64,000 bases of DNA from Planctomycetota bacterium (lineage in GTDB: Bacteria > Planctomycetota > UBA8742 > UBA2392): contig JAJVIO010000008.1 of the NCBI GenBank assembly GCA_022071975.1, forward strand, positions 1-64,000, given 5' to 3'. Every line of letters begins with the position of its first letter. Positions within the stretch are counted from its first letter, which is position 1. Of the stretch, positions 22,774 through 40,834 are shown piece after piece. A program made the position numbers and the translations under genes. A model generated the notes under the pieces. The model was not told the origin of the DNA. It did not search any database and saw nothing but the letters and a program-made list of their open reading frames with translations.

Positions 22774-24828
22774 ATGGCAAAGACCGCATGGGGCATTGAG
22801 CTCGGTACGTCGAGTGTCAAGGCCGTGAAGCTGAGCGGTGACCGTGGCGGCGTCGCTCTTGAAGACGTTGCCATCATCCCCTTGTCCGACTTCGGCCTTG
22901 GCGCCGGCAGCAGCGCGCAGGACGCCACGGCGGGCGCGCTGAACGAGCTGCGCTCAAGCAAGGGCATCAAGAAGGGCGACGAGGTGTTCGTCTCGATCTC
23001 GGGCCAGAACACCCTGGGCCGCATCATCAGCCTGCCGCCCGTCGCCAAGGAACGCGTGCGCGAGACAATTGAGAACGAAGCGCGCTCGCAGATTCCAATC
23101 AAGCTCGAAGAGGCGGTCTGGGACTTCCAGATCATCGACGAGGAAGACCCCGACGAGCTGCGGGTGAATTTGTACGCCGCCAAGAAGGATGTGGTGGACC
23201 AGATCGTCGATACCTGCGACATGGCCGGCCTGCAGATCACCGGCATCCAGGTGGCGCCGCTGGGCATCTACAACTTCATCAAGTACGAGATGGACGACGC
23301 CGTCAGTGACGCCTGCGTCGCCATCGACATCGGCGCCGACAATACCGACGTCGTGATCATCGACGGCCAGAAGACCTACGTGCGTGTGGTGCCCGTGGCC
23401 GGCAACGACATCACCAAGGCCCTGCGCGCCCGCTTCAAGCTGTCGGCCGACGACGCCGAAAACCTCAAGCGCCGCGCCCACAAGAGCAAAGACGCTGCGG
23501 CGGTGTTTGAGGCCATGAAGCCGCCCCTGAAGGACATGGTGGGCGAAATCTACCGCGCCGTGGGCTTCTACAAGTCACAGAACGAAGACGCCAACATCAA
23601 CCAGCTGGTGATGATGGGCAACGGCAGCAAGCTGCTGAACATCAAGAAGTTCTTCGAGCAGCAACTGCAGTACCAGGTCCACAAGGTGGACACCCCGGTG
23701 CGCGTGTCGCTCGCGCGCAGCGTGGACCCCACAGAGGTCCAGAACAACATCCAGAGCCTGACCGTTGCCATCGGCCTCGCGCTGCAGGGCCTGGGACTGG
23801 ATGAAGTCAACACCATCAACCTGATTCCGCCCAGCTACATCGAATCCCAGGCGCTGGCCAAGATCCGCACGCCCTTCTTTGTCGCGGGCGGCATCGCGGC
23901 GGCCGGCGGCATCATCGCGCTGCTGCTCGCGATCCTGTCCACGGGCGGCGTCAGCACGGTGATCGGCGACGCGGAAAGCCTCAAGGCCGCGGCCACGGCC
24001 CGCGACCAGGAGGTGCAGAGCAAGCAACCCCCCGAAGAGGACGCGCTCAAGGCGTACTCACTGCGTAACCTCGCCGAGGGTGTTGCGGGTGTCTTCCCGG
24101 CCCAGAAGCCCAAGGACGACGAAGAAGAAGGCTCGGGCACCCCGGCCATCGAGCTGACGGTGCGCGCCAACGAGGCGCCGGGCATGCTGACCCGCGCCAC
24201 CCACGAGGCGCTGGCGGCCTACGCGGCCGGCAATCCGCGCACGCGGGTCTATTACGCCAACTACAAGCCCCAGGCCTTGAGCGGCGGCCTGCTGACCACC
24301 ACGGCGTCGCTGCTGGAATCGGTGATCGAGCCCAGTTGGGTCGGCGCTGAGGAGAACCAGGGCGGGCATTTCGCGGCCAAGCGCGTGATCACGTTCCGGG
24401 TCTGGATCGCCTCGGAGCTGACCTCGTCGATCGGCCAGGACCAGGCCCACGACGCCTTGAAGAAGAAACTGGTGGACGAAGGCCTGCTGACCAACCGCCT
24501 GAAAGAGGCTCTGCTGGCAGAGTTCAAGGCCACCGGCCAGCTTGACGGAATCGATGAAAAGGACCTCAAGAAGATTGATTTCTCCAAGAACGTCTCGGTG
24601 ATCGTCAACCAGATCTCCAACCTCGATTACGGCAGCCAGAAGAGTGAGCTTCGCATCGGCGACCTGATCGGCACCTCCGGTGTGCTGATCCAGAAGGCCG
24701 GCCGTACGCCGCGCCCGTCACGCGCCGCCAACGACACGAAGTTCGGCGTCAGCGAGGTGGCCGTCACGTTGACGCTCACGCCGGTGCAGGAGCCGAAGCC
24801 CGCCGAAGCGGAAGAGGCAAGCGAATAA
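22774..24828 (+). CDS. pilM: PilM-PilN fusion, type IV pilus-like assembly protein
   Basis: Residues 1-345 are an actin-like PilM domain: WGIELGTSSVKAVKL and CVAIDIGADNTDVVIID are the two phosphate loops, and MMGNGSKLLNIKKFFEQQL the third nucleotide motif. PilM normally ends there and binds the short N-terminal INLLP peptide of membrane protein PilN. Here INLIPPSYIESQALAK (residues 348-363) continues in the same chain into a membrane helix (about 367-392) and a 290-residue periplasmic part. So this is a PilM-PilN fusion of 684 residues. The ATG at 22774 follows GAGGAT and starts at the first family residue. It heads the secretin locus. Confidence 0.85.
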   Translation: MAKTAWGIELGTSSVKAVKLSGDRGGVALEDVAIIPLSDFGLGAGSSAQDATAGALNELRSSKGIKKGDEVFVSISGQNTLGRIISLPPVAKERVRETIENEARSQIPIKLEEAVWDFQIIDEEDPDELRVNLYAAKKDVVDQIVDTCDMAGLQITGIQVAPLGIYNFIKYEMDDAVSDACVAIDIGADNTDVVIIDGQKTYVRVVPVAGNDITKALRARFKLSADDAENLKRRAHKSKDAAAVFEAMKPPLKDMVGEIYRAVGFYKSQNEDANINQLVMMGNGSKLLNIKKFFEQQLQYQVHKVDTPVRVSLARSVDPTEVQNNIQSLTVAIGLALQGLGLDEVNTINLIPPSYIESQALAKIRTPFFVAGGIAAAGGIIALLLAILSTGGVSTVIGDAESLKAAATARDQEVQSKQPPEEDALKAYSLRNLAEGVAGVFPAQKPKDDEEEGSGTPAIELTVRANEAPGMLTRATHEALAAYAAGNPRTRVYYANYKPQALSGGLLTTTASLLESVIEPSWVGAEENQGGHFAAKRVITFRVWIASELTSSIGQDQAHDALKKKLVDEGLLTNRLKEALLAEFKATGQLDGIDEKDLKKIDFSKNVSVIVNQISNLDYGSQKSELRIGDLIGTSGVLIQKAGRTPRPSRAANDTKFGVSEVAVTLTLTPVQEPKPAEAEEASE

Positions 24829-24862
24829 ACATCACGCGGTCTGAAGACCGGCAGGGTCAATT

Positions 24863-25951
24863 ATGGATAACCTGAAGAAAAACCTTCATTTCGTGGTGTT
24901 CGGCGCCGGGGTGCTGCTCGGCATCATCCTGCTGGTCGCCGGCATCATGGTGCGCGGCGGCACCGAGGACAAGCTTGCCGAGGCCCAGACCGGGCTGGCG
25001 GGCAAAACCAAGGTTGCCACGCGCGGCACGCTCGAAGAGGCCACCGCGCGCTCGGAACGCTTCGGCAGCTCGCTGCAGGACGCCGAGTCGAAGTTGCGCG
25101 GCATCGGCAGCGCCTTTGACGCCGGCTACCTTTCGCACCAGACGGGCGGCGAGTTCTACTCGGCCGAGGCGCGCCCCACGCTGCAGCGCCTGCGCCAGCG
25201 CTTCGCCGCGCTGTCCAGGCCCAACCCCATGCCGGCGCTGCTGGAGGGATGGGAAGTGTCGCGTTCAGGCGCAGAGCGCGTGCAGGAACAGGCCTGGGAG
25301 CAGCTTGAGCGCGAAATGACCTCGCCCTCGAACGACAAGATCCGCGAGATGCAGATGCGCCTGCGCATCCTCGATGAAGTGGCCACCACCTGCGAGAAGC
25401 TGGTCGAGACCGGCATCGGCGACGATTTCGGCTTCAAACTGACGGAAATCCGCTTCGAGGCCTACGGCGTGGCGGCCATCGGGACATACACCAACGAGTC
25501 CGACTCGCCCTGGCTGGCAATGCCGTTCAGCCTGAAGTTCGAGTGCTCGCCCTCGTTCGCCGTGGCGCTGGTGGACGAGCTGGTGAACCCGACCAGCCGC
25601 ACCATGAGCGCGACTGCCGACAAGAACCAGCGCAAGGGCTTCCCCATGCTGCTGGACATGATGCAGACCGAAATGACCGAGCGCCCGCCCGTGGTGCGCT
25701 ACGATATCAACAACGACGACAAGGGCGCCGTTGCGAACAAGCTGAACGAAAAGGGCGCAGGCATCACGCTGCCGTCCGACCCCAAGAAACTCGACCCCGC
25801 GGAGGGTGAGGGCAAGAAGCTGGTTGAGGCCGCGAGCAAAGACCTCAACCAGGACGACCGGCTGGCGTTGCCGGTCCGCGTAGGCCTGAAGATGAGGGCC
25901 GCCACGTTCAACAAGAACTGGCGCGCGGTGAAGAAGGAAGAAGAGAACTAG
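24863..25951 (+). CDS. PilO-like periplasmic protein with N-terminal anchor
   Basis: The 362-residue protein has one N-terminal membrane helix (about residues 9-29), then a coiled-coil stretch (about 35-80) and an alpha/beta region. Gene position directly after PilM-PilN and this layout match PilO. Sequence similarity is not obvious, so the name rests on topology and context. The C-terminal RVGLKMRAATFNKNWRAV could be a final strand. It should sit on the periplasmic face of the inner membrane and link to the secretin. Confidence 0.6.
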   Translation: MDNLKKNLHFVVFGAGVLLGIILLVAGIMVRGGTEDKLAEAQTGLAGKTKVATRGTLEEATARSERFGSSLQDAESKLRGIGSAFDAGYLSHQTGGEFYSAEARPTLQRLRQRFAALSRPNPMPALLEGWEVSRSGAERVQEQAWEQLEREMTSPSNDKIREMQMRLRILDEVATTCEKLVETGIGDDFGFKLTEIRFEAYGVAAIGTYTNESDSPWLAMPFSLKFECSPSFAVALVDELVNPTSRTMSATADKNQRKGFPMLLDMMQTEMTERPPVVRYDINNDDKGAVANKLNEKGAGITLPSDPKKLDPAEGEGKKLVEAASKDLNQDDRLALPVRVGLKMRAATFNKNWRAVKKEEEN

Positions 25952-26009
25952 AAATCCGGAGGAGGGATTAGAACCCCGATCTCCCCTTCCCCTAAAAGGG
26001 AAAAGGTTT

Positions 26010-27965
26010 ATGGCACAGGCAAAAAGTTCAGGAGCACTGGCGCAGTACGGCCCGGTGGCGGCCCCGTTGGCCGGCGTGGTGTTCGCGATCATTTTCATCG
26101 CGGGCGCAGTGGTGACCAGCGGCATCTCGGAGGGCACAGAAAAGCTCTCCGCGACGGTGGCGACGGTCCGCAAGCAGATGGACAACCCCAAGGCCGGGGA
26201 GTCGGAATCGGACATCCCGCTGGTGGACAACGTCACGGCCTCGCTGACGCCGGACAAGGGCGACAACTGGACCACGCCCCAGGGCAGCCGCAACCTGCTG
26301 GCGTTGCCCATCACCTGGGACGTCCAGATGGAAGACGCTGAGAAGGACGAATTCGCGTATTATGACGAGAATGCGGACGGCTACTGGGATCCGCTGGAGT
26401 TCCAGCGCACGCCCTACTTTGGCCGTCCTACAGACGACGGCAAGTTCGAAAACTGGGACCGCGACCCGACCGACGGCCAGATCAGCCGTAAAGAGCACAA
26501 AGACCCGCCGCGCAGCAATCGCGAGGCCTTTGACGAGGCTGACACAAATGATGACGGCTTCCTGACCGCCAAGGACGGCGAGATCACGACCGAGGAAGAG
26601 TACAACTGGGACCGCCACCCGTTCGACGGCAAGATCGACTTCACCGAGTACGAGAAGCGCTACGATCCAAAGGACGAAGTGGACTTTGGGCCCGTTTCCA
26701 ACGTGCAGGCACGGCTTGACCCGGCCACCATGGAAATCGTGGTGAGCTGGAGTGACCCGGACCTTGCCACGGCACCTGCCGACCTCGCTTACATGCTGGA
26801 GCGTCGTGCGCCGGAAACCGTCGCCAAGCGCATGACGGAATGGCGCAAGAAGGTGCAGGAGTACAACGCCAAGTACCGCGACTGGGAAGCTCGCTTCGAG
26901 AAGTGGTGGAACGCAGAGGCGGCCGAAGGCCAGAAGTCCAACAAGCAGCTGTTCCCGCGCCGGCCGGATGCGGAAAAGGAATTCGCCAAGACCGACGCCA
27001 AGCCGGTGCAGCCGCCCCAGCCCTCAGAGTGGGAGCCGGTCAACACCACGCCGCTGACGGGCAACGAGTACCGCGACAACTCGTTCGACCTGGACGTCAC
27101 CTACACCTACGCCGTGAAGATGGCGACCAAGAGCAACCCCAAGCGCGGCCAGCGCGCGGTGCAGGACGAAGCGCTGCCCGACTGGTACATCTACCCGGAC
27201 CGCGTCGCCACCGAGGGCCACCCGGTCGTGGTGCGTAACCGCGTTGAAATGAAGTGGTCAGGCGCGGCGCCGCCCAACGGCACCATCGCAATGGTCACCT
27301 GGCACAAGGTTTCCAGCGGCGACACCCACAGCTGGTACCGCGTGCAGGTCACCGAGATTTTCGGCCCCGACAACGACGTGATCGGCGGCAAGTTCAACAT
27401 GGCCGCCCTGCGCGATCGCAGCGTCAAGATGTTCGACACCGCCGGCACCGAGGTGAACGCCACGGAAATCCTGCCCGCTGACACGGAAATCGACTTCACC
27501 ACCGGCTTCAAGTTCGTGACCACCAGCGGCAAGGGCTTCCTGATCAGCTCACGCGAAGTCGGCGATTTCGAGCTGCCCAAGGCCACCCAGCAGGCCGCCA
27601 CGCCGGACACCCCGGCCGGCTCGGATGACTCCCTTGAAGTACGCTGCCTGGCCGTCAAGAGCGGCGCCAAGGAAGCAACTTTCGAGCTGACCCGCTGGAC
27701 CAAGGCCGGTGATGACTGGCTGCGGGTGATCTGGACCGGCTCTGCTGCCTCGGGCAAGGAGATCGGCGGCGACGTCCAGCTCGACAAGGCCGGCGCCGGC
27801 GTGGTGGTGAAAGACGCCACAGGCAAGACCCTCAGCGCCAGCGACCTCAAGAAGTACAAGGACCACACCGTGGACATGAAGGCCGGAACATTCGACGGCC
27901 TGAAAGATCGCACCGTGACGGTGGGGGGCAGCGACTTCGACCTGTTCGGCACCCTGTACCAGTAG
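26010..27965 (+). CDS. Membrane-anchored protein with EF-hand-like loops and an FN3-like domain
   Basis: Residues 15-40 form a membrane helix. Residues 115-230 contain four acidic loops: DENADGYWDPLE and DTNDDGFLTAKD fit the 12-residue EF-hand pattern, while DRDPTDGQISRKE and DRHPFDGKIDFTE have one extra residue. A beta region (VSNVQARLDPATMEIVVSWSDP, about 232) looks like a fibronectin type III domain. The C-terminal 130 residues hold two similar beta modules around SLEVRCLAVKSG and WLRVIWTG. No family name can be given. It is third in the pilM-secretin locus and is followed by a strong terminator, so the secretin gene has its own promoter. Confidence 0.65.
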   Translation: MAQAKSSGALAQYGPVAAPLAGVVFAIIFIAGAVVTSGISEGTEKLSATVATVRKQMDNPKAGESESDIPLVDNVTASLTPDKGDNWTTPQGSRNLLALPITWDVQMEDAEKDEFAYYDENADGYWDPLEFQRTPYFGRPTDDGKFENWDRDPTDGQISRKEHKDPPRSNREAFDEADTNDDGFLTAKDGEITTEEEYNWDRHPFDGKIDFTEYEKRYDPKDEVDFGPVSNVQARLDPATMEIVVSWSDPDLATAPADLAYMLERRAPETVAKRMTEWRKKVQEYNAKYRDWEARFEKWWNAEAAEGQKSNKQLFPRRPDAEKEFAKTDAKPVQPPQPSEWEPVNTTPLTGNEYRDNSFDLDVTYTYAVKMATKSNPKRGQRAVQDEALPDWYIYPDRVATEGHPVVVRNRVEMKWSGAAPPNGTIAMVTWHKVSSGDTHSWYRVQVTEIFGPDNDVIGGKFNMAALRDRSVKMFDTAGTEVNATEILPADTEIDFTTGFKFVTTSGKGFLISSREVGDFELPKATQQAATPDTPAGSDDSLEVRCLAVKSGAKEATFELTRWTKAGDDWLRVIWTGSAASGKEIGGDVQLDKAGAGVVVKDATGKTLSASDLKKYKDHTVDMKAGTFDGLKDRTVTVGGSDFDLFGTLYQ

Positions 27966-27980
27966 CCCGGTAAGCAGCAT

Positions 27981-28011
27981 AAAGACCCGGCCATCACGGC
28001 CGGGTCTTTTC
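27981..28011 (+). terminator. Strong terminator before the secretin gene
   Basis: A perfect 12-bp stem, AAAGACCCGGCC (27981-27992) with GGCCGGGTCTTT (27998-28009), closes a five-base loop and ends in a T run. Confidence 0.85.
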
Positions 28012-28103
28012 GTTTGCCTATGATCACATGGCGGTGGATACTGACATACTGGAAATGCCCCTCGAACATGACGCAAGGGTGACAGCCGAAAGCATCTAGA
28101 GCG

Positions 28104-28131
28104 TTGACACCAACTGCCTTGCGGCTAAATT
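28104..28131 (+). promoter_or_regulatory. Sigma-70-like promoter of the secretin gene
   Basis: TTGACA (28104-28109, consensus) and TAAATT (28126-28131) are 16 bases apart, about 80 bases before the start codon and directly after a terminator. Confidence 0.55.
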
Positions 28132-28210
28132 GAAGACCCCCTCCGATATTTCGTGTGGACCCCTACGCATCTTCCCCGGGATGACCCCGACGGATGAGGA
28201 GCGATCAAGC

Positions 28211-30907
28211 ATGAAGTTAGGGATCACGAAGCGGCTTTCGATGGCCGCTGTTGCCGGTTTCACGGGACTGCTTGCCGCCTGCGCGACAAGCCCGGCGCCC
28301 GCTGATGATGTGAACGTAACGCCCACGACCGACGACTACGTGTCGCGCTTCGAGGATGACGGCAGCAAGCCCGCCACCCGCGAAGAGCGCCGCGAGAAGG
28401 CGATCGAGAGCGACACCGAGGCGTCCGGCCAGCCCAAGGAAGTGGCCAGCCGCGGCGAGCGTGCCGCGCGCGGCGCCATCGAGGGCGTGAACGACAAGGA
28501 CATCAAGGAGCTGGCGCAGTTCTACGCCAACGAGGCGGCGCGCCTGTACCAGGACAAGCGCTACACCGAGGCCGGCGACTACGCCCGCGACGCGCTGTTG
28601 ATGGACCCGAACAACGCCGTCGCGCAGCAGATCAAGTCCAACGTCGACCAGGCGCTGGGCGTGGCCCGCAGCCCCAGTGAGAACATGGCCCGCGCCCGCA
28701 GCGAAGAAGAATCCGCGCTGCGCGCCGAGGCGGTGTACGAGATCAGCCACGGGCTCGATGTCGCCAGCCGCTACATTTCGCAGGGCCAGTACGCCGAGGC
28801 GATCGCCGAGCTCGAGAAGGTGCTCGACACCATCCGCTGGACCGACTACATGATCGAGACCGAAGGTTTCGAGCGCGAAGCCCGGCTGATGATACAGGAG
28901 GCCACCAACCTGCGTGAAAAGTCGCGCCTTGACGACTTCGTCAAGATCCGCGAGCAGGAACGCCGCCTGCGCGAGCTCGAGATCCAGCAGGAGCTTGACC
29001 GCTACCGCGAAGAGATCCGCAACCTGTACGACCAGGCCAAGGAATACTTCGACCGCCGCGAGTACAAAGACGCCGTGGTGGTGCTGAACAAGATCCTGCG
29101 CGAAGACCCGTACAATGAGCAGGTCTCGCGCCTCAAGCAGATCGCCACCAACCTTGACCAGGGCAAGCGCGACCGCGCCGCCTGGGAAGACTTCAACCGC
29201 AACTGGCGCGAGTCGATGGAGCTGATCAAGGCCATCACCCCGATGCCGACGGACGACATCAACCTGGCCTCCTACGAGGACTGGATGGCCACCAACGAGC
29301 GCGCCCGCGTGCTCGAGGCTTCGCGCCAGACGCCCCTCAGCAAGGAAGACATCGCGGTCCGCAGCGCGCTCGAAAACGTGACGCTGGCGCTGTTCTTCGA
29401 GGGCTCGACCCTTGACGAAGTGATCGCCAAGTTCCGCACCGAGGGCAACATCAACATCCTGCGCGCCCGCGCCGTGGACGGCGAAGGCACCACCGTTGAC
29501 CTGGACATCGGCCGCGTAAAGCTGCGCCAGGCCCTTGACCTGGTGTGCGACCAGTCCGACCTGTCCTGGCGCGTGGAAAACGGCGCGGTGATCATCGACG
29601 AAGCCGGCGCCGGCGAAGGCCGCAACGTGGTGCGTCGCGTGTTCAACGTGGCGGACCTGCTGATCAACCTGCGCACGTTCAAGGGTGACGAGCCCCGCCT
29701 GTCCGGAGACACCGAGCGTGAGTCGCGCCTGGGCTCCGAAGAGGAAGAAGAAGAAGCCGACCCGCTGGCCATCGACGACCTGCTGGAAGTGATCGAGGAA
29801 GCCATCGCCCCCGAAAGCTGGGGCCTCGACGGCCACGGCCTCACCACACGCCAGCAGGACCTGATCGTGTTGAACAGCCCGGACAACATTGACCGCGTTG
29901 CCAACCTGCTGGCCGACCTGCGCCGCAGCCAGGGCCTCACGGTGTCGGTGGAAGCCCGCTTCATCACCATCCGCGACGACTTCCTGGAAGACATCGGTCT
30001 CGACTTCCGAGGCATCGGCGGCAGCCCGCAGATCCCGGCGCCCGGTATTCCGCCGGTCCCCGCGGCCCTGGACGACATCCAGTTCGGCAACAACAGCAAT
30101 CCGGCCGGCCCCGGTGGCTCAGGCAATGACGCCGGCTTCTTCTTCCAGGACATGCCGCCTTCGGGCAACGTGCGCATCGACCAGCGCGCGCGTATCGAGA
30201 ACCTGTTTGACCAGAGCCTTGGCGGCCAGCGCGGCAACCAGGGCGTCACCAACCGTGGCGGCATGACCTTCCAGATGGCCTTCATCGACAACCCGGAAGT
30301 GAACGCCATCCTGCGCGCCGTGCGCAAGCGTGAACGCGCCACCATGCTGACCGCGCCGCGCATCACCGTGCACAACACCCAGCGCGCCCACGTCAGCATC
30401 CTGAACGAGGTCGCCTACATCCGTGACTTCGACACCAACACCGCGACCGGTGTGGCCGTGGCTGACCCGGTGGTGGACGTGATCCGCGACGGCATCGTGC
30501 TGGACGTGCGCCCGACCATCAGCGCCGACCGCCGCTACGTGACGCTGGAGCTGCGCCCGACGCTGGCCACCCTGCTGCGCCCGATCCCCACCTTCACTAC
30601 CAGCCTCGGCGTGGGTACCCCGGTGGCGATCCAGACCCCGCAGCTCACCCTGCAGCGCATCCGCACCACCATTACCCTGCCGGACGGCGGCAGCTTCGTG
30701 ATCGGCGGCCTGCGCCACATGAGCGAAACCCAGGTTGACTCAGGCATTCCGATCATCAGCGACCTGCCCCTGATCGGCGCGCTGTTCACCCGCAAGGGCA
30801 AGAGCGTGGTCCGCCAGGATATCGTGATCGTGGTCAGCGCCCGCATCATTGACCTCGAAGAGGAAGAGCAGTACCAGTACGGCGCCGGCCCCACCCAGCC
30901 GCGCTAA
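28211..30907 (+). CDS. Lipoprotein secretin, GspD/PilQ family
   Basis: Secretins form large gated channels in the outer membrane. The 898-residue protein starts with a lipoprotein signal (lipobox LLAAC, Cys about residue 26), then a charged helical region with TPR-like repeats (about 90-370). An STN-like module follows (NVTLALFFEGSTLDEVIAKF, about 390), then an N1-like domain and the C-terminal secretin core. The core includes VDVIRDGIVLDVRPTISADR, PQLTLQRIRTTITLPDGGSF, VIGGL and SDLPLIGALFTRK. A Gly/Pro/Asn-rich insert lies about 620-670. ATG 28211 has GAGGAG upstream. The N-terminal TPR region is not usual for PilQ and may anchor the two TPR-like proteins encoded next. Confidence 0.9.
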   Translation: MKLGITKRLSMAAVAGFTGLLAACATSPAPADDVNVTPTTDDYVSRFEDDGSKPATREERREKAIESDTEASGQPKEVASRGERAARGAIEGVNDKDIKELAQFYANEAARLYQDKRYTEAGDYARDALLMDPNNAVAQQIKSNVDQALGVARSPSENMARARSEEESALRAEAVYEISHGLDVASRYISQGQYAEAIAELEKVLDTIRWTDYMIETEGFEREARLMIQEATNLREKSRLDDFVKIREQERRLRELEIQQELDRYREEIRNLYDQAKEYFDRREYKDAVVVLNKILREDPYNEQVSRLKQIATNLDQGKRDRAAWEDFNRNWRESMELIKAITPMPTDDINLASYEDWMATNERARVLEASRQTPLSKEDIAVRSALENVTLALFFEGSTLDEVIAKFRTEGNINILRARAVDGEGTTVDLDIGRVKLRQALDLVCDQSDLSWRVENGAVIIDEAGAGEGRNVVRRVFNVADLLINLRTFKGDEPRLSGDTERESRLGSEEEEEEADPLAIDDLLEVIEEAIAPESWGLDGHGLTTRQQDLIVLNSPDNIDRVANLLADLRRSQGLTVSVEARFITIRDDFLEDIGLDFRGIGGSPQIPAPGIPPVPAALDDIQFGNNSNPAGPGGSGNDAGFFFQDMPPSGNVRIDQRARIENLFDQSLGGQRGNQGVTNRGGMTFQMAFIDNPEVNAILRAVRKRERATMLTAPRITVHNTQRAHVSILNEVAYIRDFDTNTATGVAVADPVVDVIRDGIVLDVRPTISADRRYVTLELRPTLATLLRPIPTFTTSLGVGTPVAIQTPQLTLQRIRTTITLPDGGSFVIGGLRHMSETQVDSGIPIISDLPLIGALFTRKGKSVVRQDIVIVVSARIIDLEEEEQYQYGAGPTQPR

Positions 30908-30918
30908 GCATCGCACAA

Positions 30919-30996
30919 AAATCAAGACCCCCGGCCTCGCCCGGGTTCCCAGCCGGTCGAAAGACCGGCTGGGTGTGTGTCCGGGGGCCTTGATTT
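30919..30996. terminator. Nested double hairpin after the secretin gene
   Basis: An inner perfect 11-bp stem (CCCAGCCGGTC 30948-30958, GACCGGCTGGG 30963-30973) closes a GAAA tetraloop. It sits inside an outer 16-bp stem (30919-30934 with 30981-30996) having one mismatch. The outer 3' arm ends CTTGATTT. A third small hairpin (31000-31013) follows. Confidence 0.7.
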
Positions 30997-31129
30997 AAAG
31001 CCCGTCTCCGGGCAAAAATGCACTGAACCCCCGGCGTTACTTATCCGTTTGCCTTTGGTATAGAAGTGCGTCCCGAACGCACCTACACAACTATTTTCCG
31101 TCTCCGGGGCTACAACGGAGCAGGTGGAC

Positions 31130-34100
31130 ATGCCCAATCAATCAAGGTTCATGACAATGCCCAGAATCCTCGCAGGGCTTGCGGTGGCGCTTGTGCTCAG
31201 CCTCGCCGCAGGTGACGTTCACGCGCGCGACATGGTCGAGTACGGCCGCTACCTCGGCGTACGCCTCCAGATGTGGGAGGAATCCTACGAGGTACTGGAC
31301 AAGATCATCGACAGCGGCAGCGCCGATGAAAAGGCGCGCGCCCGGCGCAACAAGGCCGAGGTAATGAAGGCCGAGGCTGACGCCATCTACAGCGAAGACC
31401 AGGACGACAGCGCGCGCACCGCCCGCTACGGCAAGGCGCTGGCTGTGTTCGGCGACCCTGATGACCCGGCCGGCGTGGTGGCCAAGGGCGTGATGCAGCT
31501 TGATCTGGCGCTGGCCCTGCGCCGCACGGACCCTGACGCGGCCCGCGGCTACTGCGACGACGCGATCAAGATGCTGAACGACCAGCGCGTCTACCTGGAC
31601 GAGAAGGTGCGCTTCCAGAACCCGGCGACGTGGGACAAGGTCTACCCTGACTACAGCCGCCTGTATTACCACTTCTGCCGCGGCTACTACGTGAAGGGCA
31701 TGACCTACGAGTCCGGCTCCGGCGACCGCGAAGCAAACTTCAAGCTGTGCGAGCGCAACATCGGCGAGTTCCTGTTCTCGCTCGATTACCCGACCGAAGA
31801 GCAGGTGTTGACGTACCCGCTGCTCGGCGACATCGAGATCGCCCGCGGTCACCCGGAAGCCGCGGTTGCGCAATTCACCGGCTGCGTCAGCTTCCTGAAG
31901 GGCGAAGCCGCCACCGATTACCTCGGGCGCCTGGCGCTCGAGCACGGCTACCTGCGCGCAGCTGAGCTGCTCACCACCGAGCTCGACTACGACCCCAAGA
32001 ACCTCGAGAAGTGCGTTGACCTGTACACGGAGGCCTACACCAAGTACGGCCAGATCCCCGAGCTGAACTTCCAGTTCAAGCGCTTCCAGCTGTACCGCAT
32101 CAGCGCGCTGATCAAGCTGGGCGACGAGGCCAAGGTGCGCGGCGCCATCGACCAGCTGTTCAAGCTGGCCGCCGACCGTGACGTCACCTTCCGCCGCCAG
32201 GCGCTGGTGGTGCTGGCGGACATCGCCACACGCGACAACCTCGACAACGAGCTGCGCTTCAAGTGCGCGGGCATGGTCTACGCCGAGCTGGACACCAACC
32301 CGGTGTCGGTGATCCTCAAGAACATCCAGGCCTACCAGTCGCTGATCGTGGCCTGCAAGGATGCGAAGACCTTTGAGACATACGCGCCTGCCTGCTTCAC
32401 CCGCATCGGCGAAATGTACTCGCGCATGTGGCGCTTCCTTGATGCCGCGCTGGTGTACCGCGAGGCCTGCTACCGCACCCTGTACTTCGCCGAGAAGTTC
32501 GGCCCGGACGACACGGTGCCCGATCACATGAAGGACCGCTGCGCGCTGATCAAGGACGGCAAGTCGCTGAACAACTTCCCGGCGGAAATGTCGAACCTGT
32601 TCGCGCGCCACGCCGGCTTCCTGGTTCACAAGGACCTGGGCGAGCCGAACAACAAGTTCTTCCAGAAGCTGTCGTCGGATGCCGACCAGTTGAAGGCCGA
32701 GCTGGCGGGCAAAGCCGCCAAGATGGAGCTCGCCTACAAGTCAGCCAACGAGCTCTATCGCGACAAGAAGTTCCACCAGGCCGCGGTGCGCATGGTGAGC
32801 CTGCCCGCTGAATTCCGCAGCTATCACATTGCCCTGTACATCGGCGCCAAGGCCTACTTCAACGTGTCGGAGGATCCCAACGCCCCGCGTCACAACCGCC
32901 GCGGCGAGCAGGACAAAGACAACTACAAGTGGGATATCGAGGACGCCGAGTGGTACGCGGCCCAGCGTGCGCGTCACGCTGCGGATCTCGGTTCGCTGCC
33001 CGCGTCGCTGTATGACGGTGTTGAGAAGTCGCACTGGGACGCGATCGTGGAAGGTTCCACAGCTGACCAGCTCGCGAACTGGCACAAGGCGGTCTACTAC
33101 TACAAGAAGTATTTCCTGTTCGAGGCCAAGAAGGCCTGGGACGAAATCAGCCCCGTGCTGGAGGGCAAGGAAAGGCCGGGCATCGCCGACGCCATCGGCG
33201 CCATTGCCGAGGTGCGCAACGCCAAGTGGCTGCGCGACAACCCCAGCGGCAAGGGCGAGCCCGACGCTGACATGAAGCGCATGGGCTTTGCCGCCTATGA
33301 CCTGGCCTACCTGCTGCGCAACCCGCCCCGCAAGCTGGATGACGCGACCCGCGCCGCGCTGCTGGAAGCCGAGCGCCCGCTGGCGCTGGGCATCCTGGCG
33401 CCGTACTGGAAGTGGTTCGGCAGCCACCTGGCGGACAGCCCGAACTACAAGCAGGGTTCGCTGCGGCTGTCCTTCGGCGCGCTCTCCGAGTCGCGTGACG
33501 AGGACGCTTGCGAAGAAGTCTACCGCGCCTACATCGAGTCATTCCCCGACGACACCGCCCAGATCAAGTACATGGTCAGCAACCTGTACGCCATCCTGCG
33601 CGAGAAGTTGACACCCAAGACCAGCGCCATGGCGCTGGCATCCTCGAAGCTGGTCTCCTACTCGAACCTGCTGAAAAAGAACTCGTTCGAGCGCATCAAC
33701 GGCGGCGCCAAAGACGCGGACGGCAACCCGCTGCCCGGCTTCGCCGACGACGAAAAGCGCCTCAATGAAGCCAAGGGTCTGCACCAGAAGCGCATGATCC
33801 TGGCCGAGCACTTCTGGCAGCGCTGGATGCTCGAGCAATTCCTCGATGCCGAGCGCAACCAGGAGCTGCGCGAGTTCCTGCCCGATCTGAAAGACGCCGT
33901 CGAGCAGAAGTGGAAGGCCATGGCCGAAGAGTACCCGCAGCGCTGGGCCAAGGCCGTGCGCGCCGAGTACGACACGCAGATGAAGAAGGACAGCTTCAAG
34001 CCGGTGAAGGACGAACTGACCAAGGCCCTGGCCGGCGTAACCGACTACGAGATCGTGGACAAGATCAAGGCCGTGCAGGATGCCGAGGCCGCCAAGCAGG

Positions 34101-35242
34101 GTGGCGACGGCGCCAAGATTGCGCTGCTGGCCGACCTGCTGGCGTTCATCACGGTCTCAACGGACGCGCTTGCCTATTTCACGGGCACCATCTTCATCTA
34201 CGACCTGGGCGGCTTCCTCGAGAAGCTGGCGCAGGACGTGGACGAGCGCGCCCGTCCTTCCACCACCCGTATCCTCAAGTATTACGAGGAATACCGCATG
34301 CAGCGCGGCCAGGGCGGCATGGACAGCCTGACCGAGAAGGACGTCAAGCTGCTCGGCAAGCAGTACTTCCGCATCCGCGACTGGGCCAACACCGTCAAGT
34401 ACCTCGGCAACTACGTCGAGCGCTTCGGCGGCGACCGCGCCTGGGGCAAGGAAACCGAGGTGCCCGTCGACCAGCGCAGCAAGCGGATCGGCAAGACCTC
34501 AAGCGGCAACGAACTCGAGATCAAGTACATGCTCGGCACCGCCTACCTCGAGCTGTTCAAGGAAGGCAAGGACGTCGAGAACCTGAAGAAATCCGCCCTG
34601 CTGATGCGCCGCTGCTGGTGCTTCAACCTGGTGCGCGACGCCAACGAGGTCGGCGGCAAGCAGTACAACTGGGTCAAGAGCACCAACGCCGATGACACCG
34701 ACCTGCAGAAGGCCATCGAGGACTACTACCTGTACGTCGGCCGCACCATGGCCGAGATCTTCCTGCTGCTGCACGGGCAGAAGGACGTCAAGATCGCCTG
34801 GCCGGCCTACGCCGACCAGTACACCAAGTCGCTGGAGCCCAAGAAGGAGGGTGACAAGGTGGTAACCCAGGGCGTGCCGGCCGACGCGGCGGGCTGCCTT
34901 TGGCACGCCTCGCAGATTCACCTGCGCATCTGGGCCAGCTTCAAGCTGCTGGGCGCCTACCAGTTCCGCGGCGAGTTCCGTGAGAACCTGGAAAGCTGGC
35001 TGAAGCTCAGCGTGCGCTGGCTGCAGACTTACGGCGACAAGGACATGGGCATTGAAGAACTGAAAGGCGCCGGCGTGACGCAGCAGGCCCAGGGCGCCTA
35101 TGACGTGGCCCTCAGCGAGAGCAGCCTGGAAGCCACCTACCTTCCCGATGAAATGAAGCAGTACCTGGCGCGCCTCAAGGACTACGCCAAGCAGCTCGAG
35201 AAGGTGTGCAAGGAAAAGAAGATTGACCTGAAGACCGCCTAG
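31130..35242 (+). CDS. Very large exported helical-repeat (TPR-like) protein
   Basis: The 1370-residue product has a signal peptide (RILAGLAVALVLSLAAGDVHA) and is otherwise almost entirely helical, with TPR-like pairs such as AAVAQFTGCVSFLKGEAATDYLGRLAL and many Tyr/Ala/Leu-spaced helices. No catalytic motif is visible. ATG 31130 follows GGAG by nine bases. TPR-like proteins often act as assembly platforms. Its place between the secretin and ExbB genes suggests it belongs to the same envelope machine. Codon use matches its neighbours. Confidence 0.7.
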   Translation: MPNQSRFMTMPRILAGLAVALVLSLAAGDVHARDMVEYGRYLGVRLQMWEESYEVLDKIIDSGSADEKARARRNKAEVMKAEADAIYSEDQDDSARTARYGKALAVFGDPDDPAGVVAKGVMQLDLALALRRTDPDAARGYCDDAIKMLNDQRVYLDEKVRFQNPATWDKVYPDYSRLYYHFCRGYYVKGMTYESGSGDREANFKLCERNIGEFLFSLDYPTEEQVLTYPLLGDIEIARGHPEAAVAQFTGCVSFLKGEAATDYLGRLALEHGYLRAAELLTTELDYDPKNLEKCVDLYTEAYTKYGQIPELNFQFKRFQLYRISALIKLGDEAKVRGAIDQLFKLAADRDVTFRRQALVVLADIATRDNLDNELRFKCAGMVYAELDTNPVSVILKNIQAYQSLIVACKDAKTFETYAPACFTRIGEMYSRMWRFLDAALVYREACYRTLYFAEKFGPDDTVPDHMKDRCALIKDGKSLNNFPAEMSNLFARHAGFLVHKDLGEPNNKFFQKLSSDADQLKAELAGKAAKMELAYKSANELYRDKKFHQAAVRMVSLPAEFRSYHIALYIGAKAYFNVSEDPNAPRHNRRGEQDKDNYKWDIEDAEWYAAQRARHAADLGSLPASLYDGVEKSHWDAIVEGSTADQLANWHKAVYYYKKYFLFEAKKAWDEISPVLEGKERPGIADAIGAIAEVRNAKWLRDNPSGKGEPDADMKRMGFAAYDLAYLLRNPPRKLDDATRAALLEAERPLALGILAPYWKWFGSHLADSPNYKQGSLRLSFGALSESRDEDACEEVYRAYIESFPDDTAQIKYMVSNLYAILREKLTPKTSAMALASSKLVSYSNLLKKNSFERINGGAKDADGNPLPGFADDEKRLNEAKGLHQKRMILAEHFWQRWMLEQFLDAERNQELREFLPDLKDAVEQKWKAMAEEYPQRWAKAVRAEYDTQMKKDSFKPVKDELTKALAGVTDYEIVDKIKAVQDAEAAKQGGDGAKIALLADLLAFITVSTDALAYFTGTIFIYDLGGFLEKLAQDVDERARPSTTRILKYYEEYRMQRGQGGMDSLTEKDVKLLGKQYFRIRDWANTVKYLGNYVERFGGDRAWGKETEVPVDQRSKRIGKTSSGNELEIKYMLGTAYLELFKEGKDVENLKKSALLMRRCWCFNLVRDANEVGGKQYNWVKSTNADDTDLQKAIEDYYLYVGRTMAEIFLLLHGQKDVKIAWPAYADQYTKSLEPKKEGDKVVTQGVPADAAGCLWHASQIHLRIWASFKLLGAYQFRGEFRENLESWLKLSVRWLQTYGDKDMGIEELKGAGVTQQAQGAYDVALSESSLEATYLPDEMKQYLARLKDYAKQLEKVCKEKKIDLKTA

Positions 35243-35267
35243 GCGCGGATCACGGAAGGAGATGAAC

Positions 35268-36596
35268 ATGCGTAACTTCATCCTGGCTACCACCGCCACC
35301 CTGCTGTTCGCGGGCGTGCTTTCCGCGGCCGCGGGCGGCGTGATCCAGACCAAGGACGGCAAGGCCAGCGAAGCCTATGACATCCAGGCCGAGTGTGTTT
35401 CCGGCATCATCTGGGACCAGGAGCGCAACCGGCCGGGGAAGACTGTGAAGCTCTGGGAACTGGAAAGCCTGCGCTACAAGGGCCAGGCCATGGACGAGTA
35501 CAACGGCCTCGCGCGCAAGCTGGCGGGCGGGCTGTCGGCGCGCCTGATCCAGGACGCGCAGTCCACCCTGAAGATGGAGCCGCCGTCCGGCTTCGACAAG
35601 GACGCCTGGCGCCGCAACGTGCAGCTTTCGTGCAAGTACTACGCGGCCATGGGCCGCTACCTTCAGGGCGACTGGAGCGGCGCGCAATCCGAACTCGAGG
35701 CCTACATCAAGGAGTGCGAGCAGGCCGACAACCTGCAGACCGCCAACGTGGTGCCTCGCGTGAGCTTCAGCTCAAAGGTCTCAGGCAAGCCGGTTGCCAA
35801 TGCCGGTGGCCTGAACCGCTTCTACCTGGACGCTCTGGAGGCCCTGGGCATTGCGTACCTGAACCAGGGCGATGCCAAAGCCGCCGGGGAAAAGGCCTTC
35901 AAGCCCCTGCAGGAACTGACCGAAAATCTGGCATCCAACTCAGGTGACAAAGAGTACTTCGACTGGGGCATTCGCGCCCTGCGTGCCTCGGCCCGTTACG
36001 CGGAAGACCAGAAGGACTTCAAGGGGGCCCGCGAAGCCTACGACGAGCTGTCGCGCGTGGCCGTCAAGAAGCAGGGCGGCAAACCCTCCCGCACGTCCTA
36101 CGAGGCGCAGCTCAAGGGCGGCTTCATGCAGATCCTTGAGGGCGACACCCGCGCTGCCCAGGCTCGCTTCTACGAGGCGGTGAAGAACTGGGAAGACGGC
36201 CATAAGACCACCCGCACCCAGCCCCCCCGCAACGACTGGATCAACACCGATGTCGCTTACCTCACGGCCGGCAGCTACGTCGGCATGGGACAGGTGAAGG
36301 CGGCCGGCGCCAAGAAGGCGGAAGACTGGTCTGAGGCGCTGCAGAACTTCAGCACTTCGCTGGCGATCTTCAACGCGGACGACGAGATCCGCAGCCTGGC
36401 GCTGCTGGGCGCCGCCAACGCCGCGGCCCAGCTGGCGGAGCTGAACAAGACCGCCCAGGTGACGGCCTCGAATTACGCCAAGCTGGCGGACAAGTACCTG
36501 TCGGAGCTGACCCAGCTGCTGTCGAAGACCAAGGCCGCGAACGACGAGTCGCTGCCGGCGATCCAGAAGATCATCACCAAGTACAAAGGTGACTGA
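35268..36596 (+). CDS. Exported TPR-like protein of unknown function
   Basis: The 442-residue protein has a signal peptide (MRNFILATTATLLFAGVLSAAAG), then a small beta segment (GGVIQTKDGKASEAYDI) followed by helical repeats (YYAAMGRYLQGDWSGAQSELEAYI; GIRALRASARYAEDQKDFKGAREAYDEL). AAGGAG lies seven bases before ATG 35268, so that ATG is preferred to the one two codons earlier. It starts 25 bases after the large helical-repeat gene and is likely cotranscribed with it. Confidence 0.7.
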   Translation: MRNFILATTATLLFAGVLSAAAGGVIQTKDGKASEAYDIQAECVSGIIWDQERNRPGKTVKLWELESLRYKGQAMDEYNGLARKLAGGLSARLIQDAQSTLKMEPPSGFDKDAWRRNVQLSCKYYAAMGRYLQGDWSGAQSELEAYIKECEQADNLQTANVVPRVSFSSKVSGKPVANAGGLNRFYLDALEALGIAYLNQGDAKAAGEKAFKPLQELTENLASNSGDKEYFDWGIRALRASARYAEDQKDFKGAREAYDELSRVAVKKQGGKPSRTSYEAQLKGGFMQILEGDTRAAQARFYEAVKNWEDGHKTTRTQPPRNDWINTDVAYLTAGSYVGMGQVKAAGAKKAEDWSEALQNFSTSLAIFNADDEIRSLALLGAANAAAQLAELNKTAQVTASNYAKLADKYLSELTQLLSKTKAANDESLPAIQKIITKYKGD

Positions 36597-36744
36597 AAGG
36601 TGGCATGAGCAAGTGGCCTGTTTTAAGCATTTTTCTGAACCATTTGCCCAACCCCTCGTTTTGACGTTGTCCAACTAAACCTATCTGGCGGAGGTCCCGA
36701 GCGGCGGGGCTTTCCGACCGAATACAGGGCAGGAGAAGAATCAC

Positions 36745-37491
36745 ATGAACTTGCAGATTTCGAAAAAGGCAGTTGCCGTGATCTTGATGTTCGCGATCGG
36801 TGCGGTCCTCGCGCCGGCGATGTTCGCTCAGGACGAGGCCACCTACTCGCTGGGCGAAAAGATCCTGGGTATTCCGGGTGGCGCACTCGGCATCATCACC
36901 CAGCTGGCGATCATCCTGACGTCGGTGTTCATGTTCGGCTGGATCATCGAGTGCTTCGTGAACGTGCGCCGCGACAAGATCGTGCCGCCCGAAGTGATCG
37001 GTGCCCTGCAGAACTACATCGACGAGGGCGACCTGGAAGGCGCGCTGCAGTACTGTGAGAGCGCCCCGAACTTCCTGACCCGCACGGTCGGCGCCGCGCT
37101 GAACCGCATGCAGTACGGTCCGGACAGCGTCAAGGACGCCGCGATCTCCATGAGCGAAGCCGAGCAGGGCAAGCTCGAGTTCCACATTTCGCCGATCGCG
37201 CTGTGCGCCTCAGTAGGCCCCCTGATGGGTCTGTTCGGCACGGTGACAGGCATGGTTATGGCGTTCGGTCAGATCGAGAACGCCCCGGGCGGCCAGGTGA
37301 ACCCGAAGATGGTGGCCGGCGGTATCGCTCTGGCGCTGCTGTCGACGGTGATCGGCCTGGTCATCGCTATCCCGGGCCTGATCTTCTACTGGTACTTCAA
37401 GAACAAGGTGGCGAACATCGGCACCTCGATCAACCTGGTCGCTGACGACATGGTCGAGACGATCTCCGCGTACGCAGGTCAGCAGCAGTAG
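36745..37491 (+). CDS. exbB: MotA/TolQ/ExbB proton channel family protein
   Basis: ExbB forms the inner-membrane ring that, with ExbD, uses proton flow to drive work in the envelope. The 248-residue protein has an N-terminal signal-like segment ending AMFAQ, then a first membrane helix (about 47-70), a cytoplasmic helical region, and a helix pair containing GPLMGLFGTVTGMVMAF and GGIALALLSTVIGLVIAIPG. That pair is the family hallmark. The extra signal-like N-terminus is seen in several ExbB subfamilies. Four exbD genes follow; no tonB or tolA gene is present. Confidence 0.92.
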   Translation: MNLQISKKAVAVILMFAIGAVLAPAMFAQDEATYSLGEKILGIPGGALGIITQLAIILTSVFMFGWIIECFVNVRRDKIVPPEVIGALQNYIDEGDLEGALQYCESAPNFLTRTVGAALNRMQYGPDSVKDAAISMSEAEQGKLEFHISPIALCASVGPLMGLFGTVTGMVMAFGQIENAPGGQVNPKMVAGGIALALLSTVIGLVIAIPGLIFYWYFKNKVANIGTSINLVADDMVETISAYAGQQQ

Positions 37492-37545
37492 AACCGGGCG
37501 AGGACACGTTCCAGCCCGACGACCCAGAGTAACGGAGAAGGATCC

Positions 37546-38055
37546 ATGGCAAAGAAGCGCAAACCAAAAGAAGAAGCACAGGGCGCTGAAATCGACATGA
37601 CGCCGATGATCGACGTGACCTTCCAGCTGATCATCTTCTTCATGGTGGTGACGCAGATTACCTCGCAGGAGAACGTGGACCTGCGCCTGCCCGACGCGCT
37701 CGCCGCCAACGAAGAAGAAGAAGACGCCAAGAAGCTGTTCACGGTGCACATCGCGCCCGTGAACCAGGGCACGGTGGAAGCCATGCCGGACCAGTTCGGC
37801 TGGTTCTGCTACGGTGAGCCGAATCCGAGAAACCTCGATGAGATGCGCAGCATCCTCGAGAAAGAGGCTTCCATGCAGGACCCCACCCGTGACCTGCCGG
37901 GTCGCGGCCCGGACGGCATCAGCGAAAACATGGTGCTGGTGCGCTGTGACGCGCGCTGCCCGGCCGGCGAGTTCGGTAAGCTCATTGAGTTGATGGTCCA
38001 GGTGCAGATGTACAAGATCAAGATCGCAATCATGAAGGACCAGAAGATCGAGTAG
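37546..38055 (+). CDS. exbD: ExbD/TolR family protein, type A copy 1
   Basis: The 169-residue protein has a short cytoplasmic lysine-rich start and one membrane helix in IDMTPMIDVTFQLIIFFMVV with the proton-carrying Asp. The periplasmic domain follows. It has two features shared only with the gene at 38825: FGWFCYGEPNPR and RCDARCPAGEFGKLIELM, the latter with paired cysteines. It lies 54 bases after exbB and 20 before the next exbD. Confidence 0.92.
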   Translation: MAKKRKPKEEAQGAEIDMTPMIDVTFQLIIFFMVVTQITSQENVDLRLPDALAANEEEEDAKKLFTVHIAPVNQGTVEAMPDQFGWFCYGEPNPRNLDEMRSILEKEASMQDPTRDLPGRGPDGISENMVLVRCDARCPAGEFGKLIELMVQVQMYKIKIAIMKDQKIE

Positions 38056-38075
38056 GCTTCGGTCCGGAGAAACCA

Positions 38076-38693
38076 ATGGCACGTTCCAGGAAAAGGCGCA
38101 AGAACGATGAAAAGGCCTCGCCGGACCTCACGCCGATGATCGACGTGACGTTCCAGCTGCTGATCTTCTTCATCATCTGCACGCGCTTCAAAGTCGAAGA
38201 ACGCAACCACCAGGTGCAGCTGCCCAAGGACGAAGGCCTGCAGAGCCAGCCTTCCGTACCCAAAGAGCAGATCAGCATCTACTGCATGTGGGATCCCGCG
38301 GCCAAGGCCAACAACTACGTTGTGGCCATTGACGCCCGCGGCCGCAAACCGGTCGAGAACAGCTACGCCACCCTGGAGCAGCTGGTGATCTTCCCCGGTG
38401 ATTCCAGCGCGCAGATCCGTGAGAAGAAGATCCTGTACGGCCAGATCTTCGAGAACGTGGTGGCTGCGACCGAGGCGTACATCACCAAGAGCGGCGCCAA
38501 GATCGAGAAGCTGGAGATCTCGTTCGCGGTAAACGCCATGGAAGGCGCCAGCTCCGGCACCGCGCCCTGGATGTTCGTGTCGCTCGCGATCGACGCATCG
38601 GCCCAGATCAACAAGAACCGCGAAGCCAAGGGCCTGGAGCCGCTGACAGTGACCTTCAAGTTCGCGGACGCGCTGGGTGCATTCAAGAAGTAA
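38076..38693 (+). CDS. exbD: ExbD/TolR family protein, type B copy 1
   Basis: The 205-residue protein carries DLTPMIDVTFQLLIFFIICT with the membrane Asp, and a periplasmic domain longer than type A. Its segments ERNHQVQLPKDEG, KIEKLEISFAVNAMEGASSG and VTFKFADALGAFKK are matched closely by the gene at 39342. It completes the first A-B pair and is followed by a terminator. Confidence 0.92.
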   Translation: MARSRKRRKNDEKASPDLTPMIDVTFQLLIFFIICTRFKVEERNHQVQLPKDEGLQSQPSVPKEQISIYCMWDPAAKANNYVVAIDARGRKPVENSYATLEQLVIFPGDSSAQIREKKILYGQIFENVVAATEAYITKSGAKIEKLEISFAVNAMEGASSGTAPWMFVSLAIDASAQINKNREAKGLEPLTVTFKFADALGAFKK

Positions 38694-38718
38694 CGCCGCT
38701 TGTTCAGTGTGCATCTTC

Positions 38719-38749
38719 AAGGGGGCTTGCGCTGCAGGCCCCCTTTGCT
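38719..38749 (+). terminator. Terminator between the two exbD pairs
   Basis: AAGGGGGC (38719-38726) pairs with GCCCCCTT (38738-38745) around an 11-base loop, followed by TGCTTTTG. Confidence 0.65.
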
Positions 38750-38784
38750 TTTGCCCGATCCTTCCCGCCGCAGGCTCGTTTAAT

Positions 38785-38824
38785 CGGGATCTCATCCCGG
38801 GGCGAATCTTCCAGGAGATTCGCC
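38785..38824 (+). promoter_or_regulatory. Two consecutive hairpins, the second overlapping the exbD ribosome site
   Basis: CGGGAT (38785-38790) pairs with ATCCCG (38794-38799). GGCGAATCT (38801-38809) then pairs perfectly with AGATTCGCC (38816-38824), which ends at the base before the ATG at 38825. The AGGAGA ribosome site (38813-38818) is half in the loop and half in the stem. This could limit translation of the second exbD pair. Confidence 0.6.
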
Positions 38825-39322
38825 ATGAGAAGCAAACGCCGCAAACGCGTGGCCGACGAGGCCGCGGCAGACCTCACGCCGATGATCGACGTGACGTTCC
38901 TGCTGATCATCTTCTTCGTCGTCGTTACCCAGATTGCCTCGCAGGACCACGTGGACCTGCGCCTCCCCGACGCCATCACGGCCTGCGAAAATCCTGACAA
39001 CGCCGCAAAACTGTTCACGATCCACCTGGCCCCGCTTGACCGGCGGGCCATGCCGGAGCGTTTCGGCTGGTTCTGCTACGGGGACCCCCGGCCCCGCGAT
39101 AGCGATGAAATGGCGGCCATTCTGCATGCCGAGTCTGCGCTGGTGGACCACAGCCGCGACCTGCCGGGGCGCAACGCGGTCGGAATCAGCGAAAACACCA
39201 TCCTGCTGCGCTGTGATGCGCGCTGCCCTGCCGGCGAGTTCGGCAAGCTGATCGAACTCATGAGCCAGGCACGGCTCTACAAGGTCAAGATCGCGATCAA
39301 CAAGGACCAGCAGGCTGACTGA
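38825..39322 (+). CDS. exbD: ExbD/TolR family protein, type A copy 2
   Basis: The 165-residue protein is the sister of the 37546 gene: DLTPMIDVTFLLIIFFVVVTQ with the membrane Asp, FGWFCYGDPRPR and the same RCDARCPAGEFGKLIELM box. A leucine replaces the glutamine that follows VTF in the other three copies. The start codon is directly preceded by a hairpin that includes the ribosome site, so its expression may be controlled separately from the first pair. Confidence 0.92.
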   Translation: MRSKRRKRVADEAAADLTPMIDVTFLLIIFFVVVTQIASQDHVDLRLPDAITACENPDNAAKLFTIHLAPLDRRAMPERFGWFCYGDPRPRDSDEMAAILHAESALVDHSRDLPGRNAVGISENTILLRCDARCPAGEFGKLIELMSQARLYKVKIAINKDQQAD

Positions 39323-39341
39323 GTCTTACAGGAGATGAACC

Positions 39342-39956
39342 ATGTCGAGGCAGAAAAGAACCCGCAGGAAGGAAGACAAGGCGGCACCCGACCTCACGCC
39401 GATGATCGACGTGACGTTCCAGCTGCTGATCTTCTTCATCATCTGCACGCGCTTCAAAGTCGATGAGCGCAACCACCAGGTCGAGCTGCCGAAAGACCAA
39501 GGCCCGGGGCCGATCGGCGTTCCCAAGGAGTCGCTTACGATCTATTGCACCTGGGACGAAGCAGCTCAAGCCAACGGTTACGTGGTGGCGCTCGGCGCGC
39601 GCGGCCGCAAGCCGGTGGAGGGCAGTTACGCCCGCGTCGATGAGCTGCTGATCTATCCCAGTGACGGCCCCTCTGCCGAACGCGCAAAGAGAGAGCGTTA
39701 TCGGCAGGTGTTCGAGCGGCTGGTGGACGCCATGCAGAGCTACATCGCGCGCAGCGGTGCAAAGATCGAAAAGGTGGAGATTTCGTTCGCGCACGATGCA
39801 ACCGTGGGAGCCGCAAGCGGCACGGTGCCCTGGGTGTTCGTGAGCACGGCCATCGACGCCACCACGCGGCTGAACCAGCAGCGTGAAGAGGCCGGCCAAC
39901 CGGCTCTCGGCATCACGTTCAAATTCGCGGACGCCCTGGGCGCGTACGGAGGGTAG
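39342..39956 (+). CDS. exbD: ExbD/TolR family protein, type B copy 2
   Basis: The 204-residue protein is the sister of the 38076 gene, with DLTPMIDVTFQLLIFFIICT, ERNHQVELPKDQG, KIEKVEISFAHDATVGAASG and ITFKFADALGAYGG. It starts 19 bases after its type A partner. The order A-B-A-B and the similarity pattern show that a two-gene unit was duplicated. Confidence 0.92.
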   Translation: MSRQKRTRRKEDKAAPDLTPMIDVTFQLLIFFIICTRFKVDERNHQVELPKDQGPGPIGVPKESLTIYCTWDEAAQANGYVVALGARGRKPVEGSYARVDELLIYPSDGPSAERAKRERYRQVFERLVDAMQSYIARSGAKIEKVEISFAHDATVGAASGTVPWVFVSTAIDATTRLNQQREEAGQPALGITFKFADALGAYGG

Positions 39957-40830: not shown

Positions 40831-40834
40831 AGGC

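Follow-up and report, generated by a model that had tools for sequence, protein, structure and literature searches.

In this study, a gene cluster was analysed which lies at positions 22774-39956 of a 64,000-nucleotide stretch of planctomycete DNA (contig JAJVIO010000008.1 of assembly GCA_022071975.1), the whole of which is called the window here. The locus is real, conserved and under-described, and it appears to be a planctomycete form of the secretin apparatus of Amuc_1098-1101 type known from Akkermansia, with a built-in proton motor. It comprises 11 genes, all on the + strand and separated by gaps of 19-240 bases, and open reading frame (ORF) and Pfam analysis recovered on one strand every gene that an earlier note on this DNA had named. 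The source assembly is a Planctomycetota metagenome-assembled genome of 4.24 Mb in 91 contigs, 88.7% complete. With a probability of about one half, the locus is considered to encode one proton-driven, secretin-based machine spanning the envelope, which probably imports polysaccharide.

The neighbourhood of secretin and motor genes was found to recur far outside the source genome. Within its family (f1), the order PilM-PilO-EF-hand-secretin-large repeat-TPR (tetratricopeptide repeat)-ExbB-ExbD(2-4) was found on every contig of sufficient length, the exception being G007, which has PilM-PilO-EF-hand on contig C58 and the secretin and ExbB on C103, so that the platform and secretin/ExbB modules can evidently part. 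Outside the family, a core of secretin, large repeat protein, 400-residue repeat protein, ExbB, ExbD and ExbD is again present, often with a second secretin after it, and PilM and PilO lie upstream in some lineages only. Judged from coordinates, 35 of 49 genomes (16 in f1 and 19 in 19 other families) have ExbB next to a window-type secretin or have ExbB and PilM 14-15 kb apart, on the same strand; this count includes G023 and G036 with their secretins unchecked, and G046, which was joined via contig-end fragments. Six of the 49 genomes have the linkage broken by contig ends and are hence unresolved. Among named loci, counted only where the sequence sufficed, ExbB and at least two ExbDs lie downstream on the same strand in 13/13 from the family and in 25/42 others, and the latter figure may be slightly high because the secretin profile was built partly from linked loci. 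The 77 loci kept from a single scan of the named genomes are all from Planctomycetota where the phylum is named. As the 4.24 Mb genome has a single ExbB match and five secretin matches, the chance of one such neighbourhood is a few per cent, and its presence in 19 further families shows that it is not due to chance. An assembly artefact was ruled out, as the order recurs in independent genomes. The comparison of gene order across relatives, which the earlier note had proposed, thus found the order kept in the family and the core recurring across the phylum, and these gene neighbourhoods support the view that the secretin and motor genes form a conserved unit well beyond the source genome.

The motor genes code for an ExbB/TolQ-type proton-channel subunit (36745-37491; Pfam MotA_ExbB, 7e-26) and four ExbD/TolR proteins, as had been predicted. 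ExbD 1 (37546-38055; Pfam 4e-17) carries its transmembrane Asp in a PMID motif, and the residue is also present in ExbD 2 (38076-38693; 5e-11); ExbD 3 (38825-39322; 2e-14) and ExbD 4 (39342-39956; 1e-9) are their respective duplicates. The four therefore represent a duplicated pair of two unlike members, a and b, with 62% identity between ExbD 1 and 3, 61% between 2 and 4 and 25-30% across the types. These proteins are closest to TolQ/TolR, the window ExbB resembling TolQ more than ExbB, and ExbB and the two ExbDs that were scanned fall far below all NCBIfam cut-offs for ExbB, TolQ, ExbD and TolR equivalogs. The residues of the proton path are kept: the channel threonines of ExbB are invariant in the ungapped aligned relatives (T166 in 50/50 and T201 in 49/49), and the transmembrane Asp occurs in 118/118 ExbDs (113 by motif and 5 by eye). 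The locus thus shares the motor superfamily, the channel Thr and the ExbD Asp with the TonB-ExbB-ExbD and Tol-Pal systems, but it has no TonB, TolA, TolB or Pal partner, and the residue corresponding to Glu176 of E. coli ExbB, a mostly non-conserved position, is Leu here (residue 196).

The window ExbB is the only MotA/TolQ/ExbB match in the 4.24 Mb genome, so the search for another exbB suggested earlier returned none, and the genome has no ExbD besides the four at the locus. One TonB_C domain (C65:7923-8129) and one Plug domain of a TonB-dependent receptor (C56:7142-7465) are encoded elsewhere (loci L159 and L160), unlinked and with no ExbB/ExbD of their own. Being the sole ExbB/ExbD beside one TonB and one receptor, the motor might be a general TonB energiser that is located in the operon but functionally independent of the secretin. 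This is considered very unlikely, since the motor genes stay beside the secretin and not beside TonB, the ExbDs are of two unlike types and Glu176 is mostly lost. Moreover, a single ExbB is kept in G006, G011 and G014, which share a genus and of which two are 94% complete, and in G015 (another genus, 76% complete), in all of which no TonB_C, Plug or TonB_2 match was found. The motor thus appears to be retained even where neither a Ton nor a Tol partner can be detected, which would be expected of a motor serving the window locus. A dedicated role is favoured because the ExbB is the sole one and relatives in which no TonB or receptor plug was detected retain the motor.

The secretin (28205-30907) is a TPR lipoprotein of 900 residues with a lipobox Cys26, TPRs, a weak STN/N0 match and a secretin domain at residues 706-883 (Pfam Secretin, E 2e-28). 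Its best NCBIfam match is Amuc_1098_fam (2.8e-33; 115 bits, cut-off 750 bits), its length and TPR layout are similar to those described for Amuc_1098, and its best match in the PDB is PilQ. In the secretin tree, the copies located before ExbB and after ExbD form separate groups, and the window secretin falls in the clade of first secretins. A paralogue in the source genome (C9:70545-73142; 932-residue ORF at L157:10530-13325) groups with the second-secretin clade with support 99/98, its exact placement on a long branch being supported by 93/77; the genome therefore retains both paralogues, the second one unlinked. The second secretin is an ancient paralogue of the window secretin and flanks the motor in other lineages. 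In L126, L129, L135 and other loci two adjacent secretins were seen with no ExbB within the fetched stretch, and these lineages may have lost the motor or carry it elsewhere. A different layout was observed in the near-complete genome G042 (C1:4370001-4405000; L162 and L074), where a long PilM and a 1564-residue secretin ORF lie about 10 kb apart on opposite strands with no linked ExbB.

Upstream of the secretin, three proteins with one hydrophobic segment apiece may constitute the inner-membrane platform. The first (22774-24828; 684 residues) has an actin-like PilM_2 domain (Pfam 8e-42), a transmembrane segment at 370-388 (hydropathy) and a periplasmic extension of about 300 residues. It matches NCBIfam Amuc_1101_fam best (1e-58; 200 bits, cut-off 650 bits), and the match to TIGR01175 pilM (2e-45) is weaker but above its cut-off. 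It had been taken for a PilM-PilN fusion; the PilM part stands, whereas PilN was rejected, as the C-terminal half gave no PilN match even at E 5. The second protein (24863-25951; 362 residues) has no Pfam match, and its AlphaFold model (predicted local distance difference test, pLDDT, 80) shows an Amuc_1100-like fold. The ten best Foldseek matches in the PDB are all Amuc_1100 (E 1.3e-4 to 3.8e-3, prob 1.00, TMt 0.58-0.66), followed by PilO of P. aeruginosa, and profile comparison matched the protein to its positional counterpart in other families (hhalign 90.5%). The third protein (26010-27965; 651 residues) occupies the position of PilP/GspC and shows EF-hands (weak Pfam match), an Fn3-like beta-sandwich and two C-terminal beta domains. 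Its C-terminal part (profile positions 366-532) matches the positional equivalent c21 (hhalign 93.3%). Homology of this protein to Amuc_1102 was not supported, as its AlphaFold model (pLDDT 80) gave weak and generic Fn3 matches only.

The resemblance to the Akkermansia Amuc_1098-1102 region, pointed out in the earlier note, is therefore borne out by the best NCBIfam matches (Amuc_1101 and Amuc_1098) and by Foldseek (Amuc_1100). Both loci have a TPR secretin of about 900 residues, a long PilM-like protein and an Amuc_1100-like PilO fold, and the published description of Amuc_1098-1102 is also without an ATPase. On the other hand, the window locus adds a TolQ/TolR-type motor and two exported helical-repeat proteins, its EF-hand/Fn3 protein is unmatched to Amuc_1102, and the Amuc_1098 and Amuc_1101 scores are far below the cut-offs. 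One paper (PMC13174399) presents MUL2 (Amuc_1099-1102) of Akkermansia as an attachment system of type IV-like pili and reports that the accumulation and storage of glycans in the periplasm depend on mul genes; no mention of ExbB was found in that paper.

In comparison with the PilMNOPQ complex of type IV pili, the locus has PilM, a PilO-like protein and a PilQ-like secretin in the same order, but it differs in the TPR N-terminus of the secretin and the proton-motor genes. No PilB, PilT, PilC or pilin gene was found at the locus. The earlier claim that a pilus ATPase is absent is true at the locus and fails for the genome, which has nine PF00437 ATPase matches elsewhere. Contig C15 carries a PilB, PilT and PilC cluster, and contig C28 an operon with PilM, three small proteins in the N-O-P positions (no Pfam match), a PilQ-like secretin and an N-methyl pilin-like gene, so that the separate ATPase and pilin set which the earlier note had held to speak against its proposal is present to the letter. 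These ATPases could be borrowed by a type IV pilus-like machine encoded in the window, with the ExbBD genes serving another duty, and the occurrence of PilB close to PilM in G031 and the description of the Akkermansia locus as type IV pilus-like agree with such an arrangement. However, the pilus set has its own PilM and secretin, so its existence is not proof that the window locus uses those ATPases, and it does not obviously need the window secretin. Further, neither pilin nor ATPase occurs at the locus across the family, and the ExbB linkage in 19 other families is not easily explained by neighbours of unrelated duty; hence a pilus-like machine is considered rather unlikely.

The secretin gene is followed by those of two large proteins of 1372 (31124-35242) and 444 residues (35262-36596), both having an N-terminal hydrophobic segment compatible with export and no informative Pfam match. 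Their earlier description as exported helical-repeat proteins was confirmed by these signal-like segments and by homologues with TPRs. The 1372-residue protein matched a large positional counterpart elsewhere (hhalign 99.9%), which has TPRs in L057, and the 444-residue protein a counterpart of about 400 residues with clear TPRs (hhalign 99.4%).

In the mechanism proposed here, the TPR secretin would form an outer-membrane channel joined to a platform of the long PilM-like, Amuc_1100/PilO-like and EF-hand/Fn3-like proteins. The machine would be energised not by a dedicated ATPase but by a TolQ/TolR-type motor formed from an ExbB ring and two unlike ExbDs, and from the gene arrangement it is plausible that this motor drives the secretin. 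The two exported helical-repeat proteins would relay the force of the ExbDs to the TPR part of the secretin in the periplasm, so as to open or cycle its channel. As no TonB, TolA or von Willebrand factor A (vWA) transducer was found, the force transducer would be a repeat protein or the product of an unlinked gene, and the helical-repeat proteins are likely to link motor and secretin. The job of the machine would be to move large molecules across the outer membrane, probably polysaccharide into the periplasm, much as the MUL2 apparatus may help to do with mucin in Akkermansia. Import is favoured on account of the Akkermansia parallel and of the uptake of dextran by Planctomycetes, the route of which is uncharacterised (PMC5394234).

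A number of observations weigh against this proton-driven import machine. Conserved gene linkage is the only evidence for motor-secretin coupling, and loss of this linkage in relatives, which the earlier note had named as a possible refutation, was partly seen: it is kept in 35 of the 43 resolved genomes, but in the other eight (G021, G022, G028, G042, G044, G050, G052 and G058) the secretin or PilM has no ExbB nearby. In the same way, 17 of the 42 named loci outside the family have no ExbB nearby, and the linkage is therefore common and not universal. The position equivalent to Glu176 is Glu in just 2 of 49 aligned relatives. If functional, the TonB and the receptor of the source genome must share the window motor, there being no other ExbB/ExbD, and the TonB-negative genomes are 76-94% complete, so that their missing parts could hide a TonB. 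The locus has no TonB or TolA gene, as the earlier note had stated; the TonB/TolA-like SHLS helix is absent from the window ORFs of at least 90 residues, and no vWA metal ion-dependent adhesion site (MIDAS) motif occurs in the locus genes. Lastly, the lack of an ATPase at the locus loses weight because a separate type IV pilus set exists.

A Tol-Pal- or Agl/Glt-like machine may also be considered, in which motor and repeats would tether or pull the outer membrane with the secretin as an anchor instead of a transporter, and which would act in division, envelope contact, adhesion or gliding. The closeness of ExbB/ExbD to TolQ/TolR agrees with it, and so does the result for TolB_N, which was found in none of 11 genomes with positive controls in E. 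coli, Caulobacter and Bacteroides, so that a canonical Tol-Pal system may be missing. Myxococcus has in its AglRQS-Glt gliding machinery one TolQ-like and two TolR-like subunits with TPR-rich envelope proteins, and the window locus likewise combines one TolQ-like protein and two unlike TolR-like types with TPR-rich envelope proteins; the Myxococcus machinery is not known to include a secretin. In bacteria of the Planctomycetes-Verrucomicrobia-Chlamydiae (PVC) group, TPR-tolQ-tolR-tolR-vWA clusters have been proposed as force systems (Mol Biol Evol 2025, PMC12204202). Both these clusters and the window locus show the same series of a TPR gene, a TolQ-like gene and two TolR-like genes that differ from each other, whereas the window locus has a secretin and PilM/PilO module and no vWA protein or SHLS motif; the word 'secretin' was not found in the text of that paper. 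Crateriform structures, which join the outer and inner membranes in Planctomycetes (PMC5394234), would also fit a tethering function. Nevertheless, such a machine is judged unlikely: the two secretins per system in many lineages and the Amuc_1098-1101-like core argue for a channel, and the locus yielded no partner of Pal-binding or vWA type.

Two further genes may be members of the operon. One codes for a lipoprotein-like protein of 261 residues (40045-40830, + strand) with no informative Pfam match, whose cluster c13 has 23 loci, all from the window's family or re-fetched copies thereof; the other codes for a membrane protein of 370 residues with hydrophobic segments (40811-41923, + strand), whose cluster c19 has 12 loci, also of this family. 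In 12 fetched loci, including L128, L140, L151 and L152, a sulfatase-TPR gene (cluster c20) was seen, mostly directly after the ExbDs and before or near the second secretin, which is a weak hint at polysaccharides. Housekeeping-type neighbours on either side of distant loci (uracil-DNA glycosylase, HAD hydrolase) were not taken as parts of the system. No Rfam match was found, and promoter-like matches were not above those of shuffled sequence.

No earlier description of the secretin-motor linkage was found in the open-access papers that were searched. The locus may tentatively be taken to stand for a class of secretin machines driven by TolQ/TolR-type motors instead of an ATPase, in many lineages with two ancient secretin paralogues, that imports macromolecules in Planctomycetota and possibly forms the basis of the crateriform structures. 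This wider proposal is less probable than the reading of the locus itself, and the identity of the machine with the crateriform structures is speculation. Two near-complete genomes surveyed for both genes, G042 and G052, have ExbBs of which none is linked to a secretin, which is one reason why the crateriform idea stays speculative. In type II and type III secretion and in type IV pili, secretins are known to operate together with cytoplasmic ATPases. The fixed position of a secretin next to a proton motor, seen in many families of a single phylum, points to another source of power for the transport of large molecules. The locus offers named candidate genes for the uptake of large polysaccharides by planctomycetes and for the composition of the crateriform structures, and it would extend the type of apparatus linked to mucin uptake in Akkermansia to another phylum.

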